Positions 14,795 to 31,618 of a stretch of DNA of 34,887 bases are shown piece after piece. Position numbers and translations under genes: made by a program. The stretch is from NCBI GenBank assembly GCA_018700525.1, contig JABITN010000259.1, positions 1 to 34,887 of the forward strand, written 5' to 3'. How positions within the stretch are numbered: position 1 is the stretch's first letter; each line of letters opens with the position of its first letter. The notes beneath the pieces were generated by a model. It was not told the DNA's origin. It saw only the letters and a program-made list of their open reading frames with translations, and made no database searches. The stretch comes from Opitutales bacterium. Lineage in GTDB: Bacteria; Verrucomicrobiota; Verrucomicrobiia; Opitutales; Opitutaceae.

Positions 14795-15052
14795 AGGGAT
14801 ATCATCAGTTCGAAGAGACGCTTTGTAGACTTAAATAAAAAAACCGGCAGGTCTATCGCGGACGATCGGAACCTTTGTTTTCACTTAGCAAAGCAGCGTT
14901 AATCCATTTGAGATTTTATTGGGGACGGGGTTATTGCGGCAGCCAAATACGTAGACAACTTCGCAATACAATAGATGTTTTCTGCTATTTGCAAGATTCA
15001 GCTTTCGCAATAGGAATACCCACGGCAAACTCCGAAGCATTGAAAAGGTAGC

Positions 15053-15071
15053 GACCGATCTCCGAGCGGTC
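15053..15071 (+). repeat. CTCCG-loop hairpin repeat, copy A
   Basis: The 19-mer GACCGATCTCCGAGCGGTC is preceded by GGTAGC-type sequence and followed by CAT. Stem positions 1-7 pair with 13-19 around the loop CTCCG, with an A/G mismatch at positions 6/14. The pair at 2/18 is A-T here and G-C in the three other copies. Confidence 0.8.
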
Positions 15072-15109
15072 ATTATTCTAAAGATAGCTGAACGACTTCG
15101 TCATTCATT

Positions 15110-15128
15110 GGCCGCCCGGAGGTCGACC
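15110..15128 (-). repeat. CTCCG-loop hairpin repeat, copy D
   Basis: Read on the minus strand: GGTCGACCTCCGGGCGGCC, preceded by GTCGC and followed by CAAT. The loop CTCCG is conserved. The 7/13 pair is C-G here instead of T-A, and 3/17 is a T/G wobble. With copy A, 38 bases away, it forms an inverted pair. This is the most divergent of the four copies. Confidence 0.65.
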
Positions 15129-15202
15129 GCGACCACCTTCAGCACTTGCTGAAAAACCTGTCATTTAAAAAGGATACGATTTCTCAATACTATTTCCCAC
15201 CT

Positions 15203-16069
15203 TCACACGAGATCCAGAACATCGCGCATCCAGCCCGCTATTCCTATGAGACGTTTTCGGTCCCCACCGGTAACTTCCGCGGTCGCCCAGCCAGAGAACG
15301 ATACGCTATTCAATTCTTCGCGCACCTTTACCCAATTAACCTCGCCGCCGTCAGTTCCAGTGGCAATACCTTTCCTCTTTAGTTTGACGTCGCCGAACTC
15401 CCGGTGACCACGATCTTTAATATCGAGTTTGTAAACGCGGCTACCCAGCGCCTGGGCCCAGTGCTCGGCCGATTGCTCGGTCCAAGTAATCGTGTTGCCG
15501 ATATCATAATAGGAGCGCACGAATGATGAATCAAAAGAATCAATGAAACGCGCCATTTCTTCGCCCGCTTTTAGAAACGTCGCGCGAACATTCTCGATGC
15601 ATAGATAGATGTCCGATTTTTCAGCTATCGGTATCGCTTTCCGCACTAATCTTTGCCAATGGTGGAAGTTTTCATCGTAAGACTTTTTCGGATCTTCCTT
15701 TGCTAAAACCAAAACCGAATCGCCACCGAGTTGCTTCGCAAGGTTTACGGCACGTACAATATCCGGATTCGACGAATTGATCACTCCATGTACCGGTAGT
15801 CCGATCTGCTCACTAGCCTTCACGATTTCGTTCATGTCAACTGGCTCATCGATTTTTAGCTCTACACCGTCAAAACCGATTTCTTTCAACATTCGAAACT
15901 TCTCAACAACGCTCAATTCAGGTTCAGCAATCATGTGATACTTTACTGCAATCTTGATCCTTCCTGAGAGTGGCCCTGGTTTCGCAGCGAGGCGCGAAAA
16001 GAGAATGGAGCCGAGAGCCGCTAAACCTGCTGTGGATTTCAAAAATTGCCGTCGATCAAATTGATTCAT
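15203..16069 (-). CDS. Tat-exported sugar-phosphate isomerase/epimerase-like TIM barrel
   Basis: 288 residues from the ATG at 16069. This start gives MNQFDRRQFLKSTAGLAALG, a twin-arginine signal; the frame extends to 16123 but the extra 18 residues do not fit one. The AP-endonuclease-2-type barrel is shown by FDGVELKID (Glu70), LCIENV (Glu159), SYYDIGNT (Asp189), YKLDIKDRGHREFG (213-226) and ATAEVTGG (Glu265), which are the usual metal ligands. Members isomerise or epimerise sugars; some act as lyases on keto-glycosides. Export, together with the Gfo/Idh protein encoded next on the same strand, favours action on free or keto sugars in the periplasm rather than sugar phosphates (inference). 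Confidence 0.88.
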   Translation of the reverse strand: MNQFDRRQFLKSTAGLAALGSILFSRLAAKPGPLSGRIKIAVKYHMIAEPELSVVEKFRMLKEIGFDGVELKIDEPVDMNEIVKASEQIGLPVHGVINSSNPDIVRAVNLAKQLGGDSVLVLAKEDPKKSYDENFHHWQRLVRKAIPIAEKSDIYLCIENVRATFLKAGEEMARFIDSFDSSFVRSYYDIGNTITWTEQSAEHWAQALGSRVYKLDIKDRGHREFGDVKLKRKGIATGTDGGEVNWVKVREELNSVSFSGWATAEVTGGDRKRLIGIAGWMRDVLDLV

Positions 16070-16238
16070 AGAACCGATTTTCAACCTACAGCGAATTGAC
16101 CGCTTATAAAACTCTAAAAGCATGCGTTTTCAGCAGATTTACTCAAGTTCAGGTTTTGTATCAATTATTTGCACTACACTTACCCGAGTTTCCGGAATCC
16201 TATTGCCACATACGCTCCAACCCCTTAAACATTAGGAC

Positions 16239-17603
16239 ATGATGTCCCCTAAACTTACCCCAAAAAATATTAATCGCCGATCGTTTCTGAAAACCGGGGC
16301 CCTCGTCGGAGCGGCCGCGACCATCACGGCGCCCAACATCTTGCGTGGTCATAATCTGAATGAGCGACTCAATATCGCGATGATCGGTATCGGCAATCGC
16401 GGTCAACGCAACACCGGTTATTTCGAGAAAGAGAACATTGTCGCCTTATGCGACGTGAATGCCGACAAACTCGGAATAGCCTTCAAGTTTTTTCCAAGGG
16501 CACGGAAGGCAACTGACTTCCGTAGATTGTTCGATCACGAGAAGGAATTCGATGCCGTGGTGGTATCCACCCCGGAACATACGCACGCCTTCGCCACCTT
16601 GCCCGCTCTTCAATTAGGCAAGCACGTCTATTGCGAAAAACCGCTGACCTACAATATCGAAGAGGCGCGCATCATTCGCATGGCAGCACGCAATGCGAAC
16701 GTCATAACTCAGATGGGAACGCAAAATCACGCCAACGATAACTACCGGCGCGTGGTTGAACTCATTCAATCCGGGGCGATCGGTAAAGTGCGCGAAGCGC
16801 ATGTTTGGAATTCACGCGCCTGGGGTTGGCATGAAAGCGAACAAGCAGCCCGCGATGCCAAGGACCGGTATATTGTAATCCGCAAGCCGAAGAATTCTCA
16901 ACCGATACCTAAAAGCCTTAACTGGGATTTATGGCAAGGACCAGCGCCTGATCGGCCTTTCCACAATGATTATTTCGTAGGACCCTTATGGTACCGCTGG
17001 TGGGACTTTGGAAACGGCACCATGTCCGACCTCGGAAGCCACTGGATCGACCTTCCCTTCTGGGCTCTGAAACTTGATGCGCCACTGACCATCGAAGCCA
17101 AAGGGCCGAAACCGCACAACGCTATCGCCCCCGCTTCGATGCAAGCGATTTATGAATACGGAGCTCGAGGCGAACTGCCGCCAGTGAAACTGACCTGGTA
17201 TCAAGGATTGGAAAAACCTAAAATCTGGAAAGACAACGGTATTCCCCAATGGGCCAATGGACATCTATTCATCGGCGATAAAGGCATTCTGTTGTCCGAC
17301 TATAATAAATACGTGCTGCTTCCAGAAGAAACATTCGCCAACTTCAAAGGTCCTGATCCATTCATTCCACGTTCGCCCTCTGGCCATCACGAAGACTGGG
17401 TAATCGCATGCAAAGGTGGAGCTCCAACCATGTGCGACTTCGAATACTCCGGATTGCTAACCGAGGCCAACCACCTCGGCAACGTCGCCTATCGCGTCGG
17501 CAAAAAAATCCACTGGGACGCAAAAGAGATGCGAGCCACCAACGCTCCCGATGCCGAGCAGTTCATTCGTCGCGACTACCGCAAGGGCTGGAACCTCAGT
17601 TAG
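16239..17603 (+). CDS. Tat-exported Gfo/Idh/MocA oxidoreductase
   Basis: 454 residues. [20 protein letters not shown] (RR at 13-14) is a twin-arginine signal. The Rossmann loop is IGIGNRGQR (49-57), then [18 protein letters not shown] and [13 protein letters not shown] (132-144, Lys134). The C-terminal domain has [27 protein letters not shown] and ends DYRKGWNLS. It is of the same subfamily as the 1254-2675 protein, sharing [34 protein letters not shown] and the C-terminal signature, but has the full glycine loop. Either of two adjacent ATGs (16239 or 16242) could start it. The role is oxidation or reduction of an unidentified sugar. It is convergent with the caspase-like gene, whose out-of-frame end reaches to within 15 bases. 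Confidence 0.92.
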
Positions 17604-17617
17604 TCGCTCGGCCCCAA

Positions 17618-17722
17618 TCAACCCTTAATAGGAACCAATGCTGGATCTCCCCAGAGGATATAAAGCAGTCCGTTAGCCGGATCGGGACTGACAGCCTTTG
17701 CAGGGGGCGGCTCTGGAATAGG
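17618..17722 (-). pseudogene. Out-of-frame C-terminal tail of the caspase-like protein
   Basis: Read on the minus strand one base out of frame with the upstream gene, this stretch encodes PIPEPPPAKAVSPDP followed by ANGLLYILWGDPALVPIKG and a stop at 17618. A YxLWGDPA ending is typical of gingipain/caspase-like exported proteins, whereas the in-frame ending of the gene (AYSRAAPCKGCQSRSG) looks like random sequence. The tail is therefore probably the authentic C-terminus cut off by a one-base indel, a sequencing error, or a programmed shift. Confidence 0.65.
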
Positions 17723-19181
17723 CAGGAATCGCTTTCGTTCCGATTATTGAATTCATCAGGCGCTGGTAAGCTTCGCCCGAGGACAACCCATCCATCACAT
17801 GTTCGGCCATGGGGTAAACCTTTGGAAAACCGCCGCAGGTCCCCATATGCCCCAAAATCATGACGGAGCCATTATCCATGGCGTGAAAAGCGAAGCGCTT
17901 ATCGTCCTTCTTGGAATCAAGATTCAAGCGATCCGCGGAATAAGGCGATGCCGACATGCAGGAGCCGCAAAACACGAGTTCGTCGGAGAAATCGATTCCC
18001 GCGAAGGCATCCACTTGCGTTCCCACTATCCGCTCCGGCGTGCCGTGACCAAACATGAAGAGGACATTGTTCTCATTGAGCACCTGCGTCGCTGGAGCCG
18101 ACAGGCTGGCAAATGTTTGCCTAGCCGCATTTGGTAGCATTGAAATATTTCCTTCGCTCGATTTCAATTGGGGAAAATCCGCACGCTCGGTATGAGATTT
18201 TCGAGTCGTAATGATGATCGCCGGCGACTCCTTGTCTTGCTGCGAAAACATCTTCTGAACCACTTTGGCCTTTTGGTAACTACGATAACGTCGGGAATCA
18301 TTGTCTTCGATCGCGCCAATTGACACAGGCGTAATCCGATCCTTTCCGAGAACCTTGTAGTTAATCGTCCGCTCCACCAACTCGGAAAGCTTCGCTGCAT
18401 CGCTGGCGACCAAGTAACCGGGAAAGGCGTCCAACTGCGGATCGGAATCCAATCCCGCCAACAATTTCAGAATACTCAGGTGCATGTTCTCCCGATAACT
18501 TTCCAGCCTTGGCGCAACCGCCACGAAACGCGGTTTCAACTTGCGCAGCATTTTCTGGATACGCTTAAATTCCGCTGGATCCTTAAACAAACTACCAAGC
18601 GACGACACCGCAAGCACCCTTCCTCCCCGATGTTTTGCCAATCGCTCCAGAGCATGGCGGGCCAGTTCATCCTGATGGTCGGACAAGATCACGTAACCCT
18701 CGCCGATCGCCGGGTGGGCCTTGGTTTTGGCAAGGCCGGCGGATGGTCCAAAAGCGTTCGGCGTCGGAGGGTTTCTCATATCCTCGACTGACGGGATAAT
18801 CAGCGAACGGGACGCCATGAGATCGTTGGAAGATTGTTGTATGGACCTAGATGAAGAAACCGGTCCCGCCAATTGCTCCCATTTGCTAAGTTGATCGGCT
18901 CTCAACAGCGCCAATGCTTCCTTTTGCGATGCCGATCGAAGCGCATCCAGTTTCGCAGCACGCCCCGGATTGCCTCGTTCAGCAGCCCCAATTCGTCGAA
19001 ACTCATTGCTCGTTTCACGAACAATCACCTCGATTTTCGCCGTCTGCTCCGCTGTCAGCGAAAGGTCGGCACCATTATCCAGCAGCGACTTAGCTCCTGG
19101 ACCAACGGCAGCGAAGGCCGTAGTCGCTAAGAAAAATATCAGGGCTACAGTCATGCTTATGGGGAATCGTATCTTCATCAT
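17673..19181 (-). CDS. Exported Spy/CpxP-like plus gingipain/caspase-like protein, probably frameshifted
   Basis: About 502 residues from the ATG at 19181; an earlier ATG at 19205 is possible, but this one starts directly at the signal peptide MMKIRFPISMTVALIFFLATTAFA. Numbering from 19205, residues 48-112 contain LSLTAEQTAKIEVI and LRADQLSKWEQL, LTxxQ-type repeats as in Spy/CpxP periplasmic helices. After a linker comes an alpha/beta core (YVILSDH, RFVAVAPRLESYRENM, FPGYLVASDA) with a likely His-Cys pair in FMFGHGTPE (His387) and VFCGSCMSA (Cys413 or Cys416), then MILGHMGTCGGFPKVYPMAEHV. This arrangement matches clan CD peptidases such as gingipains. The last 18 or so residues are out of frame with the expected ending. 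Substrate unknown; peptidase activity is inferred from the motif only. Confidence 0.75.
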   Translation of the reverse strand: MMKIRFPISMTVALIFFLATTAFAAVGPGAKSLLDNGADLSLTAEQTAKIEVIVRETSNEFRRIGAAERGNPGRAAKLDALRSASQKEALALLRADQLSKWEQLAGPVSSSRSIQQSSNDLMASRSLIIPSVEDMRNPPTPNAFGPSAGLAKTKAHPAIGEGYVILSDHQDELARHALERLAKHRGGRVLAVSSLGSLFKDPAEFKRIQKMLRKLKPRFVAVAPRLESYRENMHLSILKLLAGLDSDPQLDAFPGYLVASDAAKLSELVERTINYKVLGKDRITPVSIGAIEDNDSRRYRSYQKAKVVQKMFSQQDKESPAIIITTRKSHTERADFPQLKSSEGNISMLPNAARQTFASLSAPATQVLNENNVLFMFGHGTPERIVGTQVDAFAGIDFSDELVFCGSCMSASPYSADRLNLDSKKDDKRFAFHAMDNGSVMILGHMGTCGGFPKVYPMAEHVMDGLSSGEAYQRLMNSIIGTKAIPAYSRAAPCKGCQSRSG

Positions 19182-19816
19182 TTCGATCGGCTGTTCTTCA
19201 TTCAACTATCCGTTTCGCAATTGGCCTGCAACTTCGGGCTGTCCATGGCTAGGTCGAATTCACTATTCTCACTCAGAGTGCAATAAGGGGTACATTTCGC
19301 TCGCTAAATTGATGGCCGGATTACGTCTATGCAAGAGAGGAATGAGATATCAACCAGGCACCTTCACTGTTTTAAATACCCTGTCATATCTGTATTTGGC
19401 TTAGCCATCTCCATCAAAGACCCCGGTCTAACGGTGGCGGCGTTTCGTCAATAAAGCATCCCAGGGGCAGCCACCGACAGGTCGGGGACAATGTCTGAAC
19501 GGTTCCATCGTTCAATGGCCAATCGGAGATTGGCCGCTACCAAGATTGGCAACGAAGCAAACTCGAGGTATTTACCCGAAGGGAATAAACTGTAAGGCGC
19601 TGACCCGCCATCAGAAGAGAATATGTCGCCTCAGCGACCCGACCTACAATATGGACGAAGCGATACGGAGATGATGAACCAAAAAAACAAGGTGCAGTTT
19701 TAATAGCACCCAGGACCTACCCTATTAGCAACTTGCCAAGACAGACGCCACTCTTCAGCCTAACCCGCAAATCAATCGATTCCCCTATCGCCTCGAACAG
19801 AATTACCGACAGTAAT
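19182..19816. other. Long divergent intergenic region with repeat debris
   Basis: There is no credible gene in these 635 bases between the divergent caspase-like and sulfatase genes. Inverted repeats crowd 19470-19645: CCGA-cagg-TCGG near 19474, TGAACG-gttccat-CGTTCA (19496-19514), the CTCCG-loop hairpin (19517-19535), GGCG-ctgacc-CGCC (about 19597-19610) and GTCGC-ctca-GCGAC (about 19629-19642). This looks like a mosaic of small mobile or structured repeats. The promoters of both flanking genes must lie here, but none is clear. Confidence 0.6.
19517..19535 (-). repeat. CTCCG-loop hairpin repeat, copy B
   Basis: Read on the minus strand: GGCCAATCTCCGATTGGCC, with GGTAGC before and CATT after. 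All seven stem pairs are perfect. The 5/15 pair is A-T instead of G-C, and 6/14 is A-T instead of the A/G mismatch of the other copies. A second hairpin (19496-19514) abuts it. Confidence 0.85.
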
Positions 19817-21694
19817 ATGTATTTCAAAAACTCTCCGCGACTGGCGTCGCTTCGCCCAATTTTAGTAGTTTTTACCTGTTTGCTGAGTGCTCTCGCCATG
19901 GTGAAACAAGCGTCTGGCCAAGACCGTCCAAACATTCTTTGGATTACGAGCGAGGACAACGGTGTCAAGTGGGTCGGTTGCTATGGCGGAACCAATGCGG
20001 ATACGCCAGCGATTGACCAACTAGCGACGGAAGGTTTTCGCTACACCAATTGCTTCGACAATGCCGCCGTCTGCGCCCCGACACGGTCGGTTTGGATTAC
20101 CGGAATGTATGGGATTTCCAACGGGACGCAACCGATGCGTAGCCGAAATGAGATTCCGCACGACACCATCAAGTACTACCCCGACCTCCTAAAACAAGCG
20201 GGGTACCATACCTCGAATCCTTCAAAAACCGACTACAACATCGGCGGCCGCGAGGACAAAGAGTGTTGGGACTATAGTGGCGGCAGAGAAAAATATGGCT
20301 GGCGAATGCGCAAGCCGGGGCAACCTTTCTTCGCGATCGTCAATATCGGCGACAGTCACGAAAGCCGTGCTCATGGCAGCCATGACGATGTCAAAAAAGA
20401 TCCCGCCAAAATGACGCTTTTCTCGTATCACCCCGACCTTCCGGTGATCCGAAAAACCTACGCCAAGTATGCTGATGCTGTCGAAAATATGGATCGAAAG
20501 GTCCAGGCGACAATCGATGCGCTCAAGGCCGATGGCTTGTACGAAAACACGATTATCGTCTACAATTCTGACCATGGTGGAGTGATGGCGCGCAGCAAAC
20601 GATTCCTCTACTCGAGCGGCGTACACTGCCCCCTCGTTATTCGCTTTCCTGAATCGATGAAACACCTCTACCCTGGCGACAAACCAGGAACGACTGTCGA
20701 CCGAATCGTCAGTTTCGTCGACATGCCCAAAACGTGGTTGAGCCTCGCTGGTGCCAATATTCCGAATACCTACCAAGGCACTATCTTTTTGGGAGACGAC
20801 ACCGAGACCGCTCCCAAGTATCACTTGGGTTTCCGCGAACGCGCTGACGAACGACTCGACCATGTTCGACTCATGCGAACTGGACGCTACTCGTATCACA
20901 AGAACTACTTCCCATTCGCTCCCGCAGGACATCACTTGGCTTATCTTTGGAAAGCTCAATTAACTCCCGCCTGGGAGCAGCATCACCTGGAAGGCAAGAC
21001 AAACGAGATTACAGGTCGCTTCTTCGAACTACGTGTGTCCGAAGAATTCTATGACAACCAGAGCGACTTCGACAATGTTCACAATCTGATCGGCGCCCCA
21101 AAGCACCAGAAAATGATCGCTGAATTGAAAACGGCTCTACGCAAAAAGCAGCTCGAATTACGCGACTCTGGTCTATTGCCCGAGAAGATGCGCGAACGAC
21201 GCGCTGCCGAAAACAACCTCACAATCTACGAGATGGTCCGGAACGAAACGCTGTATCCACTCGAAACTTATCTGGACGCCGCCGACCTCGCTCTCGAACG
21301 CGACAAAGCGAACCTAGGAACCTTCAAGAAATGGATGACAAACGACGACGAAGGCATGCGCTGGTGGGCGAGCGTTGGCTTAAACTTGCTGGCAAAAGAC
21401 GCCCGTTCGGCGAACGCGATTTTGAAACGAGCGCTCCAGGACGAATCGCACGAAGTGCGCATGATGTCAGCCTGGACCTTGATCAAAACAGGACAAAGCA
21501 AACAAGCCCTAGCCGTCCTCGATGATCTCATTGTCAACGGCACCGAAAACGAACCCATGCTTCACAACGTGATAGACTGGATCGGCGAACCAGCGTTTCC
21601 ACTCGTAAAGAAATATCTAGACAACGGAGGCAGTCGCGATGGCAAATACGGCATCAGCATCTTCGCTCGTATCGCTCAGGTTCAGGGTTGGTAA
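19817..21694 (+). CDS. Secreted sulfatase with HEAT-like C-terminal extension (CAPTR)
   Basis: 625 residues from the ATG at 19817, chosen because it opens directly on a signal peptide (MYFKNSPRLASLRPILVVF, cleavage near SGQ); an open frame to 19733 adds 28 unlikely residues. The formylglycine signature CAPTRSVWITG starts at Cys86. The first metal motif is WITSEDNG (Glu46-Asp47) instead of the usual DD, and the second is NSDHGG (250-255). KTDYNIGG, INIGDSHESR-like sequence (VNIGDSHESR) and SKRFLYSSGVHCPLV mark a sulfatase group distinct from the others here. After about residue 485 comes a helical extension, with ALQDESHEVRMMSAWTLIK resembling a HEAT repeat, perhaps for protein or glycan contacts. 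Transcribed alone from the long intergenic region. Confidence 0.9.
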   Translation: MYFKNSPRLASLRPILVVFTCLLSALAMVKQASGQDRPNILWITSEDNGVKWVGCYGGTNADTPAIDQLATEGFRYTNCFDNAAVCAPTRSVWITGMYGISNGTQPMRSRNEIPHDTIKYYPDLLKQAGYHTSNPSKTDYNIGGREDKECWDYSGGREKYGWRMRKPGQPFFAIVNIGDSHESRAHGSHDDVKKDPAKMTLFSYHPDLPVIRKTYAKYADAVENMDRKVQATIDALKADGLYENTIIVYNSDHGGVMARSKRFLYSSGVHCPLVIRFPESMKHLYPGDKPGTTVDRIVSFVDMPKTWLSLAGANIPNTYQGTIFLGDDTETAPKYHLGFRERADERLDHVRLMRTGRYSYHKNYFPFAPAGHHLAYLWKAQLTPAWEQHHLEGKTNEITGRFFELRVSEEFYDNQSDFDNVHNLIGAPKHQKMIAELKTALRKKQLELRDSGLLPEKMRERRAAENNLTIYEMVRNETLYPLETYLDAADLALERDKANLGTFKKWMTNDDEGMRWWASVGLNLLAKDARSANAILKRALQDESHEVRMMSAWTLIKTGQSKQALAVLDDLIVNGTENEPMLHNVIDWIGEPAFPLVKKYLDNGGSRDGKYGISIFARIAQVQGW

Positions 21695-21762
21695 ATATTG
21701 CATAAGAGGGAGTCATTGAACAGAGCCAGTCGGGTATCCCCTTTGGGGAATCTAAAATCGAG

Positions 21763-22620
21763 CTACCTTCGCGTGTGCTTTAGCAGAAAATCCATCGCGA
21801 TGGAGTCCGCGCGATCTCGGAGGTCCCTTCTGATGTGATGCTCTTGGTCCTTCACTTTACAGTAGACCACTTCTATTCCGTCCAAATTCGTATACGTGTA
21901 CACAGTGATCTCGTCTCCTACTTTCTCAACGACCGGATCGGGGCCGCATTGGTTAAACGTACGCCAAACATCGATACGCTCCGTCGCCGAATACATAGTC
22001 ACTTTCGGATTGCTTGACCCATTGAAACTCTTGTCCTGGTCACCGATCACTTGCATGACCGGGACAGGCTTCGTATTTCCGTCTGGCTCATGCCCGTCTT
22101 TCACCATGCCGCAACTCATAGGAGACAATGCAGCGAACAAGGAGCTTTCCTTTGCAAGCCGATAGCAAAACAGCCCCCCACTGGAATGACCGGTCGCATA
22201 GATGGCTTTAGGATCGGCGATTTTCTGCCTAATTAAGATTTCAACTACCTTAGAAGTAAACCCGACATCATCATGATTCACTTCGTGAAAATTATCCACG
22301 AAGTTCCACTTTGCGAGTGGCTGAACCGCTTCCGCACTGATAACAATCAAACCCTGCTTATCGGCCTGCGGGCTCCACCGATTACTCTGACCTTCCGCTT
22401 TGCCTCCTGCGCCATGAAAGCAAAATAGAATAGGATAAACACCTTGGCGATCGAAGGTCTTCGGCGTAGTGACGATGAGCCTCCTAGATAGACCGTCATA
22501 TTGGATCTGGACCTCATTCTTTCCCGGAGACAGCGATGCTAGGTCAGCAGCATACGACTGAGGTAAACTAAAAATAACCTTAGCTGCCAGCATTAGGTAT
22601 ACAACGCTCAATCTACACAT
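21763..22620 (-). CDS. Secreted PHB-depolymerase/feruloyl-esterase-like alpha/beta hydrolase
   Basis: 285 residues with a signal peptide (about 1-24, ending SYAA). The alpha/beta-hydrolase elements are in order: oxyanion loop FCFHGAGG (67-73), nucleophile elbow GHSSGG (144-149, Ser146), VIGDQDKSFNG with a candidate acid Asp194 or Asp196, and a late His in QEHHIRRD (261 or 262). This is the LpqC/polyhydroxybutyrate-depolymerase-like family, which includes esterases that remove acetyl or feruloyl groups from plant and algal polysaccharides. Placed among sulfatases, glycan de-esterification is more likely than polyester breakdown (inference). It is convergent with the 19817 sulfatase and divergent from the 22770 sulfatase. 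Confidence 0.87.
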   Translation of the reverse strand: MCRLSVVYLMLAAKVIFSLPQSYAADLASLSPGKNEVQIQYDGLSRRLIVTTPKTFDRQGVYPILFCFHGAGGKAEGQSNRWSPQADKQGLIVISAEAVQPLAKWNFVDNFHEVNHDDVGFTSKVVEILIRQKIADPKAIYATGHSSGGLFCYRLAKESSLFAALSPMSCGMVKDGHEPDGNTKPVPVMQVIGDQDKSFNGSSNPKVTMYSATERIDVWRTFNQCGPDPVVEKVGDEITVYTYTNLDGIEVVYCKVKDQEHHIRRDLRDRADSIAMDFLLKHTRR

Positions 22621-22769
22621 TCTTAACAGGAACGCACAATGTAGACAGATTGCAACCTTAAGCTCACCTTCCTACTCGTTATCTCAAATTCCCCTTGCTC
22701 GCAGAAGAACGCCATCCGACTATCCGGAAAAGAACCCCTTTTAACAACACTTGTTCAATAAATTTCGCA

Positions 22770-24197
22770 ATGATTACAAAACGTATTCTAATCCTACTAA
22801 GCCTCGCCCTTTCAACATTCATCCTTTGTCCTTCCTCCTTGGCCAGTGCTACTCCCAATATCGTTATTGTAATGACCGACGATCAGGGCTGGGGCCAAAT
22901 GGGCTACCAAGATCACCCCGTCCTAAAAACACCCCACCTCGACGCGATGGCAGCCAACGGATTGCGTTTTGAGCGTTTCTACGCGGGAGCGCCCAATTGC
23001 TCTCCTACCCGCTCAACGGTTATGACAGGTCGCAGCAACAATCGCACTGGCGTTGAAGATCACGGTTTCCCCCTACGCCTGCAGGAAAAACCCCTCCCAA
23101 AAGCAATGCAAAACGCCGGCTACACTACAGGTCACTTCGGCAAATGGCACCTCAACGGATTTCGCGGGCCCGGCGCGCCCATCCTAGGATCGGATCCACG
23201 CAGCCCTGGTGCATTCGGTTTCGATGAATGGCTATCGGTCTCCAATTTTTTCGACCGCAATCCCATCATGAGTCGCCAAGGCACCTTTGAGGAATTCAAA
23301 GGCGATTCATCTGAAATCATCGTAGCCGAAGCTCTCGAATTCATCACACGGCAAGCCAAGTCGGGCAAGCCCTCTTTCACGGTCATCTGGTACGGCACTC
23401 CGCACTCACCCTTCGTAGCGAGCGATGAAGACAAGGCTCCATTTCCAAATCTCGAATATCCATCGAAGAACCACTACGGCGAAATGGTCGCGATGGACCG
23501 CAGCATCGGCACCCTGAGAAGAGGCCTGCGTAATCTCAGAATCGCCGACAACACGCTTGTCTGGTTCAACAGCGATAACGGTGGACTCCAGAATATAAAA
23601 CCGGATACAGTCGGCGGTCTGCGAGGCAACAAAGGAACCGTATTCGAAGGAGGCCTACGCGTTCCCTGCGTAATCGAATGGCCGGCGGTGATTAAACATT
23701 CACGGATCACGAACCACCCCACGGCCACCATGGATATTTTTCCAACAATCGCCGAAATCGTGGGACTGCCAAAATCCGACCTTCTCCAGCCACAGGACGG
23801 AATGAGCGTTCGCGCTTTATTCGACAACGAAATCGGTCCACGCAAAAAACCGCTCGGATTTCGTCATATGAAAAAGGCCGCCTTTCTCGACAACGACTAC
23901 AAGCTCGTCGCCCCCGACATGGCCAAAGGCGAATTCTACCTCTACAATGTAGCAAAGGATCCGAACGAGACCAACGACCTCTACAGAGCAAAGCCAGCAA
24001 TCGCCAAACGCATGCTCAAGCAATTCCAGAAATGGGATGCTTCCGTTCAAGCTAGCTACGAAGGGAAAGACTACCCCGAAGGCCACGTAGATCCAGACCA
24101 CCCTGGACGCCGCGACTGGACCCAGTCCGAAGAATACGAACCTTACTTCGAAGCCTGGAAAAATCGCCCCGAATTCAAACGATACCTCAACAATTAA
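22770..24197 (+). CDS. Secreted sulfatase (CSPTR, SDNGG)
   Basis: 475 residues from the ATG at 22770; an upstream frame to 22695 lacks a signal-like start. The signal peptide MITKRILILLSLALSTFIL is cleaved near SLASA. Motifs are canonical: MTDDQGWGQMGY (Asp37-Asp38), NCSPTRSTVMTGR (Cys77), GHFGKWHLNG (Lys125, His127) and FNSDNGGL. RGNKGTVFEGGLRVPCVIEWP follows, as in arylsulfatase A-type enzymes. The C-terminus has the usual small sulfatase domain. Its stop codon is only six bases from the start of the FG-GAP protein gene, so the two are co-transcribed and probably translationally coupled. Exact sulfated substrate unknown. Confidence 0.94.
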   Translation: MITKRILILLSLALSTFILCPSSLASATPNIVIVMTDDQGWGQMGYQDHPVLKTPHLDAMAANGLRFERFYAGAPNCSPTRSTVMTGRSNNRTGVEDHGFPLRLQEKPLPKAMQNAGYTTGHFGKWHLNGFRGPGAPILGSDPRSPGAFGFDEWLSVSNFFDRNPIMSRQGTFEEFKGDSSEIIVAEALEFITRQAKSGKPSFTVIWYGTPHSPFVASDEDKAPFPNLEYPSKNHYGEMVAMDRSIGTLRRGLRNLRIADNTLVWFNSDNGGLQNIKPDTVGGLRGNKGTVFEGGLRVPCVIEWPAVIKHSRITNHPTATMDIFPTIAEIVGLPKSDLLQPQDGMSVRALFDNEIGPRKKPLGFRHMKKAAFLDNDYKLVAPDMAKGEFYLYNVAKDPNETNDLYRAKPAIAKRMLKQFQKWDASVQASYEGKDYPEGHVDPDHPGRRDWTQSEEYEPYFEAWKNRPEFKRYLNN

Positions 24198-24203
24198 GTG
24201 TTT

Positions 24204-25331
24204 ATGAAAAAGCTCATGCGATTAGCCTTACTCCTACTCTCCCTTGCATCTACTTTTTCTGCATCCGCCGCTGAAGAACGACGCTTCATGAGCAACAGTC
24301 GACTCGTAATTGGAACCGAATCGGAACTCTCGGCATCTCTCCGTATTGGAGATTTGGATAGCGACGACGATCTCGACATCGCCGTCGCGAATGGACGCCA
24401 TTGGCCCCAACAAAATCTTGTCTGGTTTAACCACGGCCCCGCCCGATTTAAGCTCATACGTCGACTTGGACAAGATATGGCTGCATCCTATGCTACCGAA
24501 CTGGCCGACTTAGACAATGACGGCGATCTCGATATCGCTGTAGGAAACGACACCGCCCCTAATCTTATTTTCCTCAACGACGGAGAAGGACACTTCCAGC
24601 GTCACGCAACCTTCGGGGTACCCTCGAGCCTCCGCAGCCTGACGCTAGCCGATATCGATCAAGACGGTAATATCGACATACTGGCCAATGCCCGAGGCAG
24701 ACAAAATCTAATCTACTTCAACGATGGAGCGGCCAATTTCCCGAGGACTCAGCCATTCGGCAATCAGGTAGATTCCACCATTGATGTTGCCATAGGCGAC
24801 CTCAACAACGATGGCTATCCAGACCTCGTCCTTGCCAATCGAGATGCCCAGCAAAACGTAGTGCTGCTCAACGACGGACACACTCAATTCACTCAACGAA
24901 TCCCATTCGGATCGGGCCAAGACGAAACGCGGGCAATTGCTGTAGCCGATCTCAACGGGGATGGAAACCTGGACTGGGTCGCCGGAAATATCGGAAAAAC
25001 GAATACAGTTTATATCGGCAACGGAAAAGGCGGAATCACCGAAGCTCACGATTTCGGTCGAACAAACGGACAAACCTATACCCTTGCGATCGCAGACATG
25101 AACAACGATGACCTACTTGATATCGTCATCGGAAACACCGGCCAGCAGAATGCGGTTTTCTTCAACCAAGGCAGCGGAACGACATTTAGGGAAGTTCGAT
25201 TCGGAGAAGCATCCGAAGTGACCTACAATCTAGCAGTTGGTGACCTAAACAAAGATGGCTACACCGACATAGCAGTCGCCAATTCCGGTTCCGAAAATCG
25301 GATCTACATAAATCTCCCCGCAAAGAAATAG
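24204..25331 (+). CDS. Secreted seven-bladed FG-GAP/VCBS beta-propeller
   Basis: 375 residues from the ATG at 24204; a GTG at 24198 is in frame, but the ATG opens directly on the signal peptide MKKLMRLALLLLSLASTF. The mature protein is seven repeats of about 47 residues, each with a calcium-binding DxDxDG-like loop: DLDSDDDLD, DLDNDGDLD, DIDQDGNID, DLNNDGYPD, DLNGDGNLD, DMNNDDLLD and DLNKDGYTD, followed by IAVAN or equivalent and N-rich strands (NLVWFN, NLIFLN). Seven blades close a propeller. No catalytic domain is attached, so a binding or lectin-like role, perhaps presenting substrate to the coupled sulfatase, is most likely (inference). Confidence 0.9.
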   Translation: MKKLMRLALLLLSLASTFSASAAEERRFMSNSRLVIGTESELSASLRIGDLDSDDDLDIAVANGRHWPQQNLVWFNHGPARFKLIRRLGQDMAASYATELADLDNDGDLDIAVGNDTAPNLIFLNDGEGHFQRHATFGVPSSLRSLTLADIDQDGNIDILANARGRQNLIYFNDGAANFPRTQPFGNQVDSTIDVAIGDLNNDGYPDLVLANRDAQQNVVLLNDGHTQFTQRIPFGSGQDETRAIAVADLNGDGNLDWVAGNIGKTNTVYIGNGKGGITEAHDFGRTNGQTYTLAIADMNNDDLLDIVIGNTGQQNAVFFNQGSGTTFREVRFGEASEVTYNLAVGDLNKDGYTDIAVANSGSENRIYINLPAKK

Positions 25332-25416
25332 AAGGGCTGTCGCCAACGACCCCACGCCGCAACACAACCAAGTAGCTACGCGAGGGACCCGCGTGGAGTC
25401 TCAAGATCCCAAGTCG

Positions 25417-27009
25417 TTAGTCCTCGCCTTCCGCCAAACTCGCTACCCAACGAACCGTTTGGGTAACCTCCACATTCACCTCTGCATCGTTGGCTTGAAT
25501 CGGACCCGCGCGGCTCGTACCACGAGCTACGATTCTCTTGAGACTCTCTCCCAAACGTTCGGCAATTTCCGATTCATTTTCGCTCAGATTATTCGCTTCA
25601 GCTATATCCTCTTCCAGGTTGTACAATTCTACTATTCGAGATTTTCCACGCGATTGGTTTCGATTCGCGACCGCATTTTTGTAGACGACTTTCCAAGACC
25701 CTTCCATATACGCGAATTCGCCTCCCACAGAATGACTCACTACATGACCCCGATGCGGCTCATCGTTTTCTCCGAAAATCGTGCTCAAAAAGCTGATACT
25801 GTCCTCTCCTGCATCGTTAGGCAACACAGAGCCCAACAATTCAGCGCAGGTCGCGAACAGGTCATTCAAGCTAAGGATATCGTCATTCACCAAACCAGCC
25901 TCGATCCTATTCGGCCAACGCACCATGAACGGCACTCGATGCCCTCCTTCCCAAATATCCGCCTTGCGGCCACGGTAAGGACCGCTCGGAAAATGCCCGG
26001 CCTCTATCAACGTATTCCATTCTGTCGGCAAGTGACCATTATCCGAAGTGAAAATGATTAACGTATCCTCCGCCACTCCGACATCTTCCAAAGCTTGGAT
26101 TACTTGTCCGGCTGACCAATCCGTTTCCATTATAAAATCAGCAACCAGAGCAATGCCGCTCTTCCCCTTAAACTGCTCAGTCGGTACAATCGGCGTGTGA
26201 GGCGAGGTCATCGGAAAATACAAAAAAAACGGTTCTTCTTCCTGCGCTTGATCGTGAATATACTCCACTGCTCGCTGAGTAAGCTCCGGCAAAATCTGAT
26301 CAAACTGCCAGCCAGGGACCATGGGATTCCCATCGAACTGCGCAGGCAATGCCCTGCCATCATTTGGAACGTATTCAAATTTTTCCGTCGGTTGCTCAAA
26401 CACTCGATCGTTCTCGATAAAGGTAAACGGAGGCTGGTTCGGTACATCGGTTCCGAAGTAGTAATCGAATCCGCGCGTCGTCGGTCCATTGAGAACCGGC
26501 TTCGTATAGTCCCATTCTTTTGTCCGAAGACTATTGGTCTGTTCTTCCATTGTGTTGGGTTGCGGACCCGCCCATTCCCAACCCAGATGCCATTTACCGA
26601 TACAGGCGGTATTGTAACCGCGATCCCTCAGAAAACCCGGAAGCGTCAACCGGTCAGCCGCGATCAAAGGAGGTTCGTAACAAGCCAGCACCCACTCTTG
26701 AAGACGCGTACGCCAAGCATACCGACCCGTCAACAAACCGTAGCGCGTCGGCGTACAAACGGCCGAACCGCTGTGCGCATTCGTGAAGCGCATAGACTCC
26801 GCAGAAAACGCATCCAAATACGGAGTAGCGATTTTGTTATCCGGGAAATGAGCCTGAATATCGCCTATTCCAAAATCATCCGCCAAAATGATGACGATGT
26901 TCGGCTTCGAATCGCGCCCAGAAGATGACTGGTCATGAATCGTATTCCTGGAACAGCCCGTTAACAACAATGCTATCGTCGAGCAGATAAAAATGTAGGT
27001 TCTTAACAT
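25417..27009 (-). CDS. Lipoprotein sulfatase (CTPTR)
   Basis: 530 residues. The N-terminus has a lipobox LLTGC with Cys19, so it should be lipid-anchored, unlike the other sulfatases here. Motifs: ILADDFGIGD (Asp44-Asp45), VCTPTRYGLLTGRYAWRTR (Cys85), CIGKWHLGW, PMTSPHTPIVP and FTSDNGH. It is closely related to the 31644-33092 sulfatase (shared TPTRYG..TGRY.WRTRLQ, TRGFDYYFG, PHTPIVP), with PSD1 and DUF1501 genes between them. It lies 64 bases downstream of the DUF1501 gene and is probably the last gene of that transcript. It is convergent with the FG-GAP gene. Substrate unknown. Confidence 0.94.
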   Translation of the reverse strand: MLRTYIFICSTIALLLTGCSRNTIHDQSSSGRDSKPNIVIILADDFGIGDIQAHFPDNKIATPYLDAFSAESMRFTNAHSGSAVCTPTRYGLLTGRYAWRTRLQEWVLACYEPPLIAADRLTLPGFLRDRGYNTACIGKWHLGWEWAGPQPNTMEEQTNSLRTKEWDYTKPVLNGPTTRGFDYYFGTDVPNQPPFTFIENDRVFEQPTEKFEYVPNDGRALPAQFDGNPMVPGWQFDQILPELTQRAVEYIHDQAQEEEPFFLYFPMTSPHTPIVPTEQFKGKSGIALVADFIMETDWSAGQVIQALEDVGVAEDTLIIFTSDNGHLPTEWNTLIEAGHFPSGPYRGRKADIWEGGHRVPFMVRWPNRIEAGLVNDDILSLNDLFATCAELLGSVLPNDAGEDSISFLSTIFGENDEPHRGHVVSHSVGGEFAYMEGSWKVVYKNAVANRNQSRGKSRIVELYNLEEDIAEANNLSENESEIAERLGESLKRIVARGTSRAGPIQANDAEVNVEVTQTVRWVASLAEGED

Positions 27010-27073
27010 GAGCCAAATAATTTTGAGATCGTTCTATTTCTAACCGACTCCTACACTCCCCTACAAAACACTC

Positions 27074-28561
27074 TCAAGCCAGCAAACCCTTGATCACCTT
27101 TGCATCTTTAACGCCGGTCAGCCGCTGGTCCAAACCCTGAAACGGATAGTTGAGCTTCTTATGATCGAACCCTAGGAGATGCAGCATAGTGGCGTGATAG
27201 TTTTCCATCGGCACGGGGTTTACCGCCGCGCTATAGCCAACTTCATCAGTCTCGCCGTAAGTTACGCCAGGCTTTATCCCACCTCCCGCCATCCAAGCCG
27301 TAAACGCTCCCGGGTTATGATCGCGACCGATGAGCTTCATTTCGCGACCATTTCGATTTTCTCGCATTGGAGTGCGACCGAACTCGCCGCTCCAGACGAC
27401 CAGCGTATCCTCCAATAACCCTCGTCGCTTAAGATCCGTAAGCAACGCCGCCATTGGCTTGTCTACCTCGCGACACTTATCCTGAAACCCTCCATTAAGA
27501 GCTTCAGCCTCTCCCGCACCGTGCGAATCCCAACCCCAATCGAAAAGCTGAACATAACGCGTGCCTCGCTCTACAAGCCGTCGGGCTAACAAACAATTAT
27601 TCGCAAAACTCTCTTTCCCAGGAGCCGTCCCGTAAAGTTCATGCACTTCTGCCGGTTCTTTCGAGATGTCCATCGCATCAGGCACGGCCATTTGCATACG
27701 AAAGGCCATTTCGTATTGCGCGATTCGGGTCAGCGTTTCCGGATCGCCAAAATCTTCATGGGTTTGCGTATTGAGGGTTTTCAATGTATCTAAAGTCGAC
27801 CGACGAATATCGCGAGAAATGCCCTCAGGGTTAGAGACATTCAAGACCGGATCCCCAACCGAACGACACTGGACGCCTTGGTAAACCGAAGGAAGAAACC
27901 CGGAACTCCAAAGCGCTTTGCCCACGCGAGGCTGGCGCCCGCCGGAAAGCAGTACAACAAACCCGGGAAGATCCTCGTTTTCCGTGCCCATCCCCCACGT
28001 CACCCAAGAGCCAATGGATGGGTATCCGATACGCGCCTGCCCCGAATGCACCATCAACTGAGCAGGACCGTGATTGAATTGATCCGTCTGAAGCGTCTTG
28101 ATGAAGCTAACATCATCGACCACTTTCGAAAAAAACGGTAACCGATCCGAGACCCAAGCGCCGGACTTTCCGTGTTGTTTAAATGGATACTGAGGACCGA
28201 GCATGTTAGGGGTCCCCTGGATAAACGCAAAGTCCTTGCCTTCGAGAAACGATTGCGGACAGGCCTGACCATCTAATCTCTCAAGATCCGGCTTATAGTC
28301 GAAAAGCTCGAGCTGGCTCGGAGCGCCGATCATGTGGAGATAGATTACCCGCTTGGCTTTGCCCCTGAAATGAGGCGGGAGAGCATTGAACGGATTTGCT
28401 GTATCGTGAGTCGAATAGTCCAATCCACTCGCAAACGAACCCGATTTACCTGCGAGAAACATCGCTCCGAGACCCGTTGTACAACGACTTAGAAACTGTC
28501 GCCGCGTTTCGTGCTCAAGGGTGCGAAGACGCGTTTCGTTTAGTAGAGATTCGAGTTTCAT
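27074..28561 (-). CDS. DUF1501 protein, Tat-exported
   Basis: 495 residues. HETRRQFLSRCTTGLGAMFL (RR at 20-21) is a twin-arginine signal starting later than usual, a common feature of the family. DUF1501 motifs: VIYLHMIGAPSQLELFDYKP (72-91), DQFNHGPAQLMVHSG, SIGSWVTWGMGTEN, DWGWDSHG, VVWSGEFGRTPM and GRDHNPGAFTAWMAGGGIKPG, ending in the HLLG-FDH-KLNYPFQG-D-RLTGV block. The fold belongs to the alkaline-phosphatase-like superfamily, as do sulfatases, but the C-x-P-x-R motif is absent and its reaction is unknown. It starts six bases after the PSD1 cytochrome gene, the partner with which it is found across Planctomycetes and Verrucomicrobia. Confidence 0.95.
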   Translation of the reverse strand: MKLESLLNETRLRTLEHETRRQFLSRCTTGLGAMFLAGKSGSFASGLDYSTHDTANPFNALPPHFRGKAKRVIYLHMIGAPSQLELFDYKPDLERLDGQACPQSFLEGKDFAFIQGTPNMLGPQYPFKQHGKSGAWVSDRLPFFSKVVDDVSFIKTLQTDQFNHGPAQLMVHSGQARIGYPSIGSWVTWGMGTENEDLPGFVVLLSGGRQPRVGKALWSSGFLPSVYQGVQCRSVGDPVLNVSNPEGISRDIRRSTLDTLKTLNTQTHEDFGDPETLTRIAQYEMAFRMQMAVPDAMDISKEPAEVHELYGTAPGKESFANNCLLARRLVERGTRYVQLFDWGWDSHGAGEAEALNGGFQDKCREVDKPMAALLTDLKRRGLLEDTLVVWSGEFGRTPMRENRNGREMKLIGRDHNPGAFTAWMAGGGIKPGVTYGETDEVGYSAAVNPVPMENYHATMLHLLGFDHKKLNYPFQGLDQRLTGVKDAKVIKGLLA

Positions 28562-28567
28562 CGCAGT

Positions 28568-31444
28568 TCAGTAAGTGAGCGTTTCATCGAGGTTGAGCAA
28601 TACTTGAGCTAAAACCAACCAAACCTTATCCGGAGACTGAGCGTGCACTTCATCGTGAAGCCCAACCAATTCCTCAATCTGTTTCGAGTTCGCCGACCGT
28701 CCAGTCGCAAGTCGATGAGCCTGGACGAGGCGTTCTTCAGTGGAGCCGGAAAAGTCCGACTCCAGCCGTTTCCCCAAAGCCTCTGCGCATTCCACGAAAA
28801 CCATATCATTTAACGTAACGAGCGCTTGCAACGGCGTATTCGACGAAAGACGACGAGGAGAGCAGAACTCGCGCGATGGCGCATCGAAGGTCGCAAACGT
28901 TGGAAAAGGGATCGTTCGTTTGACGTAAGTATAGATCGAACGGCGATAACGGTCTTCATCACCAACTTCGGGTGTTTCCCATTTATCGCGACTTGCAAAT
29001 GGCCGCCACACGCCTTCGGGCAAAGGAGGATGAACCGGCGACCCTCCTCTTTTGGAGCCAATCAATCCGCTCATTGCCAACGTCTGATCGCGAACCATTT
29101 CGGCCGTTAGTCGTAAACGCGGACCGCGAGCCAACAGACGATTATCCGGATCCTGCTCCAAAAGCTCGGGAGTCACCCGCGATGATTGACGATAGGCGTG
29201 GCTAAGGACGACCTCTCGTATGATCGCCTTAACCCCAAAAGCATAGTCTTTCTGAAAACGCACCGCGAGATAGTCGAGCAACTCAGGATGCGTCGGTTTT
29301 TCGCCTGAAGATCCGAAATCCTCTAGTGTCGGAACAATTCCAATACCGAATAACTGTGCCCAGATCCGATTGACGAATACTCGGGCGGTAAGCGGGTGAT
29401 TATCAGAAACCCACCAACGTGCCATCTCGAGTCGATCGAGCGGACCATTCGCCGGAGCAACCTTAGTCAAAGTTTTGGGTAGTCCCGCAAAAACCAAGTC
29501 CCCTTTCACCATAGCGTTTCCTCGTTCGAATATATGCGTTGGGCGGGCAAGCTTATCCGGTCGTCGATGCATGATCGGTACCGTCGTCCCCGGAATATCC
29601 GAAAGACGCTTGAGCGCTTGAGCCAATTCCTCAATTCGAGGAAACGTCTCACTCCCCTTCTTTCCCAATCGCGTCCAACGCATATCTGAACTACTCGACA
29701 ATTGCCCTCGCTGAATCGCCATAGGGTGGCTGCCTTGACCTGTTTTGTCGCAGTGAATATGAAAAGCGAGCACCTCGTCCTTCTCCAAGCTCAATGGCAC
29801 TTCCGGAACGAGAACCAACTTTCGAGTATAATGGATACGCGAATCAGCTCCCCAGTTCTTACCGTTGCCTTCGATTACGTTCATCGGATCCGTAGGCATC
29901 CACGGTACGTCCGGAACGCTTAATCTAAACGCAATAGGTTCTTTTTCGCCATTTTGGTCCACGACCGAGGCTTCCAGATCGTTTACGAGAAACCCCCATT
30001 CCGGATTACTGACCGAAGCCTCTGGATCATAAGGCAGAACGGTTAGCAATAGAGCCGTTATGGGCTCATCGCCAAGACTTGCGGCGGGAACATCTATCAA
30101 GTTGTGGGTTTTCGTCTCCACGGTTCCTTCGGTGAAAAACTCGTCGTGCCCCAGCTTTTCAACTACGGAAAACTTGGTACTGTTATTAGACTTTACCTTA
30201 AGCCCCTTAACTCCCCGCCAATCGGTTTGCTCCTGCAAACCCATGCCACTCTCCCAGATCGATTCTTTCAGCTCGAGAATGCCCTGACGCAATGCAGCAG
30301 CTTCATTATAAAGTCTAACATCATCGGGAACGGTGATCAGCGGCGCCTCGTCCGACAGATCGGAATCCGCGGAATTATTGTAGAACGCCATGAATTGGTA
30401 GTACTCCTCGTTACGCAGCGGATCGTAGGGGTGGTCATGACATTGCACGCAACCGAACGTTAAGGAGCCCCACGTTTGCCACGTCGTATTGACCCGATCG
30501 ACAACCGCTTCAACGCGAAACACTTCATCATCAGTGCCGCCTTCGTCATTCGTTTGCGTATTACGCTGACAGGCAGTGGCAACCAAATCGCCTATAGTCG
30601 GCCGGGGAAGCAGATCGCCCGCGAGTTGCTTGATAGTAAATTGATCGAATGGCAGGTCATCGTTAAACGCTTTCACCACCCAATCGCGGTAGGCCCAGAT
30701 CGTTCGCTTCTGATCCTGACCTAAGCCCCCCGAATCCGCATAGCGAACGAGGTCGAGCCACATGCTCGCCCAACGTTCGCCGAAAGCCGGGCGGCTAATC
30801 AAATCATCGACCACATTTTCTACGGCGACTTGCGAATCATTTTCGAATGCGACTTCAAAGGCATTCAACTCGGAAACGTTCGGAGGCAATCCGGTAAGAC
30901 CCAGACTGAGCCGCCGTAACAATCGACCAGATCCCTCTACCGTGCTGGGCTTCAAACCTTCTTTCTCCAAACGATTGAAGAGAAAACGGTCCAAATCGCC
31001 CGTCGCTTGATCGTCGAACTTTGTCTCGGGAACCGGCGGTTTGCTTGGGGTTTGAAACGCCCAGTGACCGCTCCACTTGGCGCCGCCTTCAATCCACTCT
31101 TCGATCAACGCGATGTCCTCCTCCGAAAGCGTTTCATGCTCATCAGGCGGCGGCATAAGATCGTCTTCGTCATCCGTCGTTACGCGGTAGAACATTTCCG
31201 ACGCGCCCACATTGCCTGGCTTCACTACTGGAGAACCCGATTTCCCCTCGAAGTTAACTACACGGTCCTCGTAAACAAAGGAAACGTCGCCCGCAGCTTT
31301 CACTCCACCATGGCACTCAACGCAATTCTGATTGAGAATCGGCTGAATATCGCGGGCGAAATCGACTTCTGGATATGCGGTAGGAGCAAGAGCAGAAAGG
31401 GCGAGAACAGGAGCAAATGTCGGGGGTCGTAAAGAAACGATCAT
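28568..31444 (-). CDS. PSD1-type cytochrome c protein (DUF1549/DUF1553)
   Basis: 958 residues from the ATG at 31444; an ATG at 31486 would add 14 residues ahead of the signal peptide [21 protein letters not shown] planctomycete cytochrome c domain carries CVECH (41-45) with MPPP as a candidate distal ligand region. DUF1549 follows ([28 protein letters not shown] to [11 protein letters not shown], with a second haem-like motif at 332-336), then a beta-rich insert and DUF1553 ([61 protein letters not shown]). Periplasmic electron transfer is likely, but the partner reaction is undefined. It is co-transcribed with DUF1501. Confidence 0.95.
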
Positions 31445-31599
31445 GTTTGAGAGGACTATTCGTGGAAGAATCTTATATCGAATCAATAGTCGCTAAACGC
31501 ATTTAGCAGCATCTAGGAATTAGGCCTAGCTCTACCTTTCCAAAGGCCCAAGAGACAACAAAAAACTAAAGATTCCCTTCAATGCAATCTTTAGGTAGC

Positions 31600-31618
31600 G
31601 GCCGATCTCCGAGCGGCC
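31600..31618 (+). repeat. CTCCG-loop hairpin repeat, copy C
   Basis: The sequence GGCCGATCTCCGAGCGGCC, with TAGGTAGC before and CAT after, lies between the 31644 sulfatase stop and the PSD1 start. It has the same A/G mismatch at 6/14 as copy A, but a G-C pair at 2/18 where copy A has A-T. Confidence 0.85.

Follow-up and report, generated by a model that had tools for sequence, protein, structure and literature searches.

Repetitive extragenic palindromes (REPs) of the GTAG class, their head-to-head pairs, their structured spacers and their linkage to genes for REP-associated tyrosine transposases (RAYTs) were described by Di Nocera et al. 2013 (PMC3733652), and that paper names a verrucomicrobium, Opitutus terrae, as highly enriched in GTAG REPs. 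Inverted REP doublets, termed REPINs (REP doublets forming hairpins), were reported from Pseudomonas fluorescens by Bertels and Rainey 2011 (PMC3116915) and also appear in PMC8049555, and the TnpA-REP transposase of E. coli requires an irregular stem (PMC8266576). Here we analysed a 34,887-nucleotide stretch from an Opitutales bacterium (assembly GCA_018700525.1, contig JABITN010000259.1; hereafter the window), for which a preliminary description had reported four dispersed hairpins with the loop CTCCG between genes. The results indicate that these hairpins are very probably units of a GTAG-class REP family, termed family A, whose head-to-head pairs form the mobile unit (REPIN) and would be mobilised by a RAYT.

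Copy number and organisation of family A

All four 19-mers with the loop CTCCG were present, at 15053-15071 (+), 15110-15128 (-), 19517-19535 (-) and 31600-31618 (+), and no copy overlapped any of the 75 window open reading frames (ORFs) of at least 80 aa. The repeated unit is a 25-mer made up of the GGTAGC lead and the hairpin. The lead-stem-loop pattern GGTAGCGGCCRATCTCCG matched the window four times at up to 3 mismatches, compared with a mean of 0.07 and a maximum of 1 in 100 shuffles. In the own genome (4,796,265 bases, 268 contigs), the 25-mer was found at 130 places at up to 3 mismatches, compared with 0 for the reversed pattern, and a covariance model returned at least 138 matches; all covariance-model counts given here come from 150 scored candidates per genome and may be low. 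A search for further copies, as proposed in the preliminary description, was thus positive. That description had based its three-pair covariation on four sequences, which left room for chance hairpins or an alignment artefact; the counts in the genome and in the window refute this explanation, which we consider to have practically no probability.

Copies were read at 82 own-genome loci, the window included. A tolerance of 6 mismatches gave 136 matches (reversed control, 0) and, once four hairpins that had matched on each strand were merged, 132 copies. The majority (88/132) formed 44 head-to-head pairs with GTAG outward and gaps of 14-53 bp, most commonly 38 bp. Tail-to-tail pairs were absent from these loci, and 2 neighbours on the same strand lay within 150 bp; genome G236 had two tail-to-tail arrangements among 7 pairs. 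Many spacers carried a hairpin of the TGAACGA...TCGTTCA type, as judged by eye and from folds. Placement was strongly biased: ORFs of 150 aa or more contained 16 of the 132 copies, compared with 81.6% of random positions. The tag was exactly GTAG in 96 copies, GTCG in 14 and another sequence in 22; CGTC was absent from the listed tags of the 132 copies, which sets family A apart from the CGTC class. The family therefore shows the features of GTAG-class REPs, namely GTAG 5' of the hairpin, a short irregular palindrome and many mostly extragenic copies, together with the defining feature of REPINs, a main unit that is an inverted, head-to-head pair.

Neither the loop, which had been described as invariant, nor the GTAG tag is invariant over the genome: CTCCG occurred in 103 of the 132 copies, and the GTAG count is given above. 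An A.G mismatch occupied pair 12/20 of the 25-mer (6/14 in the earlier numbering of the 19-mer) in 114/132 copies. This position had been treated as a stem pair, but it is mismatched in three of the four window copies, and the stem is perfect in the 19517 copy only. The bases 3' of the hairpin were mainly A (120 copies), T (91) and T (79).

Stem covariation and species subtypes

Three stem pairs had been reported to change on both sides. The changes are as described in the four window copies; over the 132 copies, pair 2/18 (8/24 of the 25-mer) alone was strong, with G-C replaced by A-T in 19. For pair 5/15, a double change was found in 1 copy, that of the window, compared with 12 copies without a standard pair, and for pair 7/13 the corresponding numbers were 2 and 5. 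Many stem changes are uncompensated, a result that agrees in part with what had been put forward as evidence against a selected structure and that is also expected of decaying copies.

Covariation was evaluated on an alignment of 84 distinct rows, two offset 25-mers of 86 having been left out. The results showed 90.3% paired cells (shuffled, 88.3%), 15 cells with changes on both sides (shuffled, 4.4) and a covariation score of 0.166 (shuffled, 0.130), and none of 500 shuffles was as high in any of the three measures. In two further measures the shuffles did as well more often: 48/500 reached the number of pairs with a double change, and 193/500 reached that of pair types. The signal came mainly from pair 8/24, and the shuffle control ignores relatedness. 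Covariation is modest within the genome and clearer between species.

The clearest difference between species concerned pair 9/23, which was C-G in 114/132 own copies, 40/43 copies of ANT-100, 14/14 of OFTM265, 5/5 of EAC85 and 14/16 of G236, and G-C, with both sides changed, in 37/37 copies of 2_bin.11, 20/22 of G365 and 6/9 of G212; these fractions are not a census, as the loci cover part of the genomes and those of 2_bin.11 and many of those of G365 and G212 were picked where the subtype stood out. In 2_bin.11, at least 97 of 142 model matches had one and the same score; the 37 identical copies were mostly chosen at one score, so that their identity is partly a matter of choice. A shift of spacer length with stem subtype was considered and rejected, as G236, G244 and G363 combine C-G stems with short spacers. 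The stem contrast between species is unaffected because it is independent of this withdrawn claim. It is conceivable, though we hold it doubtful, that all REPs of a species turn over jointly; if so, such turnover would record, in nature, how the specificity of a transposase shifts in step with its hairpin.

Distribution of family A in Opitutales

Among 273 genomes of the order, 8 had a match at up to 2 mismatches; four of them belong to the same genus, and the four others have one match each. Beyond the order, the distribution was assessed by an exact-match scan of genome contigs alone, which returned at least 96 stretches; the 80 listed were all titled Opitutaceae, Opitutales or Verrucomicrobiia. 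Family A was carried by all 11 genomes of the genus found among 250 genomes. The seven genus genomes with a RAYT relative (E <=1e-12) had 138, 51, 146, 66, 61, 53 and 142 model matches, compared with 25, 29, 13 and 5 in the four without one at this threshold. Genomes were equated between searches by identical match places (G359=G439, G360=G399, G361=G367), by E-value and size (G365=G413, G366=G449) or by size and the absence of matches only (G362=G427, G363=G383). The contrast in copy number is consistent with RAYT-driven spread and does not amount to proof of it. When own sites were compared with collinear flanks in other genomes, the unit was present at 17/22 and absent at 5/22, a ratio that means little as the compared loci were mostly chosen for holding units.

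RAYT genes and their flanking hairpins

Two Y1 transposase matches were obtained in the own genome, one an intact RAYT and the other an IS200-type remnant. The intact RAYT matched NF047646 with 110.8 bits (cut-off, 80) and had other GTAG hairpins in its flanks: GTAGGACGGGGCGCTGACCCGTC lay on either side and GTAGGTCGCCGCTCCGAGGCGAC on one side. A pattern akin to these hairpins occurred at 18 genome places, one of them at 19625-19647 (-) of the window; the unit there belongs to a second GTAG REP family. A check for a linked REP-type transposase, proposed in the preliminary description, thus yielded an intact gene, but one flanked by another REP family. The IS200-type remnant (L031/L228, contig C12) has a stop, and a copy of the outer-arm module described below lies nearby at 3 mismatches.

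Family A was found beside a RAYT frame in the related genome ANT-100, where the frame is cut by the contig end and is followed, on the one visible side and 28 bp after the stop, by a family-A unit and its partner. None of the 37 RAYT frames in one set of loci, in which one gene was counted three times, had family A beside it. Across Opitutaceae, a GTAG hairpin lay within 300 bp of 65 of 94 RAYT-like frames, at a density of 3.13 per kb compared with 0.33 per kb farther off; the frames came from best-match loci with split genes counted twice, and the hairpin lists were selected for pairing. Repeating the comparison with a loose loop pattern and no selection for pairing gave at least 6 of 8 pairs in 37 of 70 distinct hairpins near RAYTs and in 6 of 58 far from them. 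Of the 58 distinct RAYT-flanking hairpins, 6 shared the CTCCG loop, including two that belong to family A, and several had the A.G mismatch.

In the metagenome-assembled genome 2_bin.11 (L277, about 1400-1500), a family-A element interrupts the RAYT gene of another REP family, because the frame ends before the YIR.NPVR stretch and a RAYT-like C-terminal end resumes beyond the element. By eye, the flanks of the interrupted gene carry a different GTAG repeat. The outer arm at L277 was also considered as RAYT 3' sequence, and this was rejected for the same reason.

Outer-arm module and longer mosaic

A second hairpin module, AATACCTCGRRGCTTGCYYCG, ended 5, 11 or 37 bp before the unit in 14/132 copies at up to 4 mismatches, compared with 18/4000 random windows having the module. 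At up to 3 mismatches, the module occurred at 40 places, and the 37 printed contexts, in which some places appear twice, had a family-A unit near in 20 and none near in 17. A longer mosaic, seen in L322, L332, L339 and L329 and, by eye, also at 19450-19590 of the window, consists of a REP pair flanked by direct repeats of the approximately 22-bp hairpin module, and TTTATT occurs close to its ends. L332 and L339 also apparently contain one module alone. One outer-arm variant with a CTTGAGCCTGTCGAAGG-like stretch (L336, L337, L345) may resemble CGTC-class REPs. The larger mosaic with its outer arms may move as one piece, because one such element interrupts a RAYT gene.

These observations bear on a second explanation, in which the units are non-autonomous passengers of an IS200/IS605-type TnpA or another unlinked enzyme, with the outer-arm long form possibly the moved unit. 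An IS200-type remnant is present in the genome, the outer module flanks some copies, and the intact RAYT, by its flanks, serves another REP family. However, REPs linked to RAYTs are typified by the GTAG tag and by pairing head to head, the outer module is missing from 118/132 copies, and copies are more numerous in genomes with RAYT relatives. We therefore regard this explanation as unlikely.

Features of the window and their neighbouring genes

The coordinates of the features are listed in Table 1. The four copies had been described as dispersed; those at 15053-15071 and 15110-15128 are the inverted halves of one 88-bp unit.

Table 1. Family-A features in the window.
Feature	Coordinates	Strand	Basis
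Complete 88-bp REPIN: two REPs head to head, GTAG ends outward	15047..15134		Two inverted matches, 38-bp gap; fold
REP unit, GGTAGC lead and hairpin, A-T subtype of pair 8/24	15047..15071	+	Pattern match
Imperfect inner hairpin of spacer	15089..15107	+	Fold; similar inner hairpins elsewhere by eye
Partner REP unit, diverged: GTCG for GTAG, 4 mismatches to consensus	15110..15134	-	Pattern match
Probable decayed long form: REP, inner hairpin and eroded partner REP between two outer arms	19450..19590	-	By eye against longer copies
Possible eroded partner REP	19466..19492	+	By eye only; not recovered at 7 mismatches
Inner hairpin of the 19517 copy	19496..19514	-	Sequence and fold
REP unit with perfect stem	19517..19541	-	Pattern match
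Single REP unit identical to the consensus; no partner at up to 7 mismatches	31594..31618	+	Pattern match

The folding of the complete window pair beat all 200 shuffles (z -3.0). Corresponding values were -9.4 for a well-preserved pair, -3.4 for the ANT-100 pair, -2.0 for the 19450-19590 stretch and -2.0 for the single 31594 unit, and the exact-consensus window copy folded as modelled. The outer-arm module had no match in the window at 3 mismatches. The genes on either side of the complete pair are of the MocA-type oxidoreductase and xylose-isomerase-like kinds. The 19517 site has an ORF with no Pfam match on one side and a divergent sulfatase gene on the other, and the 31594 site is bordered by a PSD1/PSCyt and a sulfatase gene. 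A 510-aa ORF at 17673-19205 (-) had no Pfam match at E 0.001.

The positions of the units also bear on the possibility that they work as hairpins in RNA, whether as terminators, as stabilisers of mRNA 3' ends or as small RNAs, and are under selection in transcripts, their spread as repeats being incidental. Such a role would suit the intergenic placement and the 31594 unit, which lies 25 bp beyond the stop of ORF 31644-33092, and PMC3733652 includes the hypothesis that REPs act in mRNA. However, the window had 0 Rfam matches above the gathering score, the unit is followed by ATT and not by a T run, and the 19517 copy stands between divergent ORFs. Non-standard pairs of the G.T (25) and A.C (22) types were about equal, a weak test as copies lie in both orientations. 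A role in RNA further leaves the head-to-head pairs, the GTAG tag and the many equally scored matches of 2_bin.11 unexplained, and we consider it distinctly improbable. A tRNA scan of the window was empty.

Discussion

The preliminary description proposed selection on a structure, either an RNA hairpin or a DNA hairpin recognised by a protein such as a transposase. The latter option is favoured because of the GTAG tag, the head-to-head pairs, the high extragenic copy number and the RAYT genes of the genus, whereas the RNA option is unsupported. The same description could name no element that explains the hairpins. In this it was mistaken: the class of GTAG REPs and REPINs is well known, and PMC3733652 lists a verrucomicrobium among its hosts. 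Family A is well supported as a REP/REPIN, and we regard it as a new family of this known kind.

Several results weigh against mobilisation of family A by a RAYT with the pair as the mobile unit. Pairs were not better conserved than singles (mean pairwise identity, 0.863 for pairs and 0.871 for singles; permutation P = 0.66), in a test whose loci were picked by a 3-mismatch match, which favours singles, and whose expectation is a prediction tested in one species and not a strict definition. No family-A copy was found near the intact RAYT of the genome, at up to 7 mismatches in 2.1 kb or up to 6 in the whole 4.6-kb contig, and none of the complete RAYTs seen was bordered by family-A units on either side at once. 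The ANT-100 assembly yielded no N-terminal part of its RAYT, and a family-A copy would lie by chance beside some ANT-100 RAYT in roughly one case in ten (rough estimate). The 2_bin.11 RAYT was rejected as a case of linkage to its own family-A REP, the gene being interrupted by the element. Moreover, the copy-number contrast is uncorrected for phylogeny or completeness, and G363, one of the RAYT-poor genomes, has five Y1 transposase matches. We infer, rather than observe, mobilisation by a RAYT.

By analogy with work on E. coli and Pseudomonas, the unit would fold when its strand becomes single-stranded. A RAYT, an HUH tyrosine transposase, would then recognise the GTAG tag and the irregular stem, cleave beside the unit and copy it elsewhere, and lone units would represent decayed pairs. 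No new kind of system is revealed. The findings add a well-populated REP/REPIN family from a genus of mainly metagenome-assembled Opitutaceae, in which family many RAYT genes sit by GTAG hairpins that are common in tag, share the loop in some cases and differ in the stem. Close species with different main subtypes make the question of RAYT-hairpin matching testable.

No description of family A was recognised, and the sequence of its unit was unmatched in the literature searched (text, with few subscription papers and no figures). The comparison with the O. terrae families of PMC3733652 was made on their description, and family A may be identical with one of them. Family A resembles GTAG REPs in having GTAG by a short hairpin, a high copy number, a mostly extragenic location and mainly head-to-head pairs (20-100 bp apart in the published cases), as well as some spacers with their own hairpin and some pairs within longer palindromic tracts. 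Its inverted doublet with a structured spacer recalls the P. fluorescens REPINs (PMC3116915), in which the doublet is the mobile unit and singles are remnants; unlike in those REPINs, family-A singles are not more diverged than doublets. Finally, family A shares with the REP y/z of E. coli (PMC8266576) the GTAG tag and a stem with a conserved irregularity; where E. coli has the AA-GC bulge, the sequence of family A shows one A.G mismatch close to its 5-base loop.

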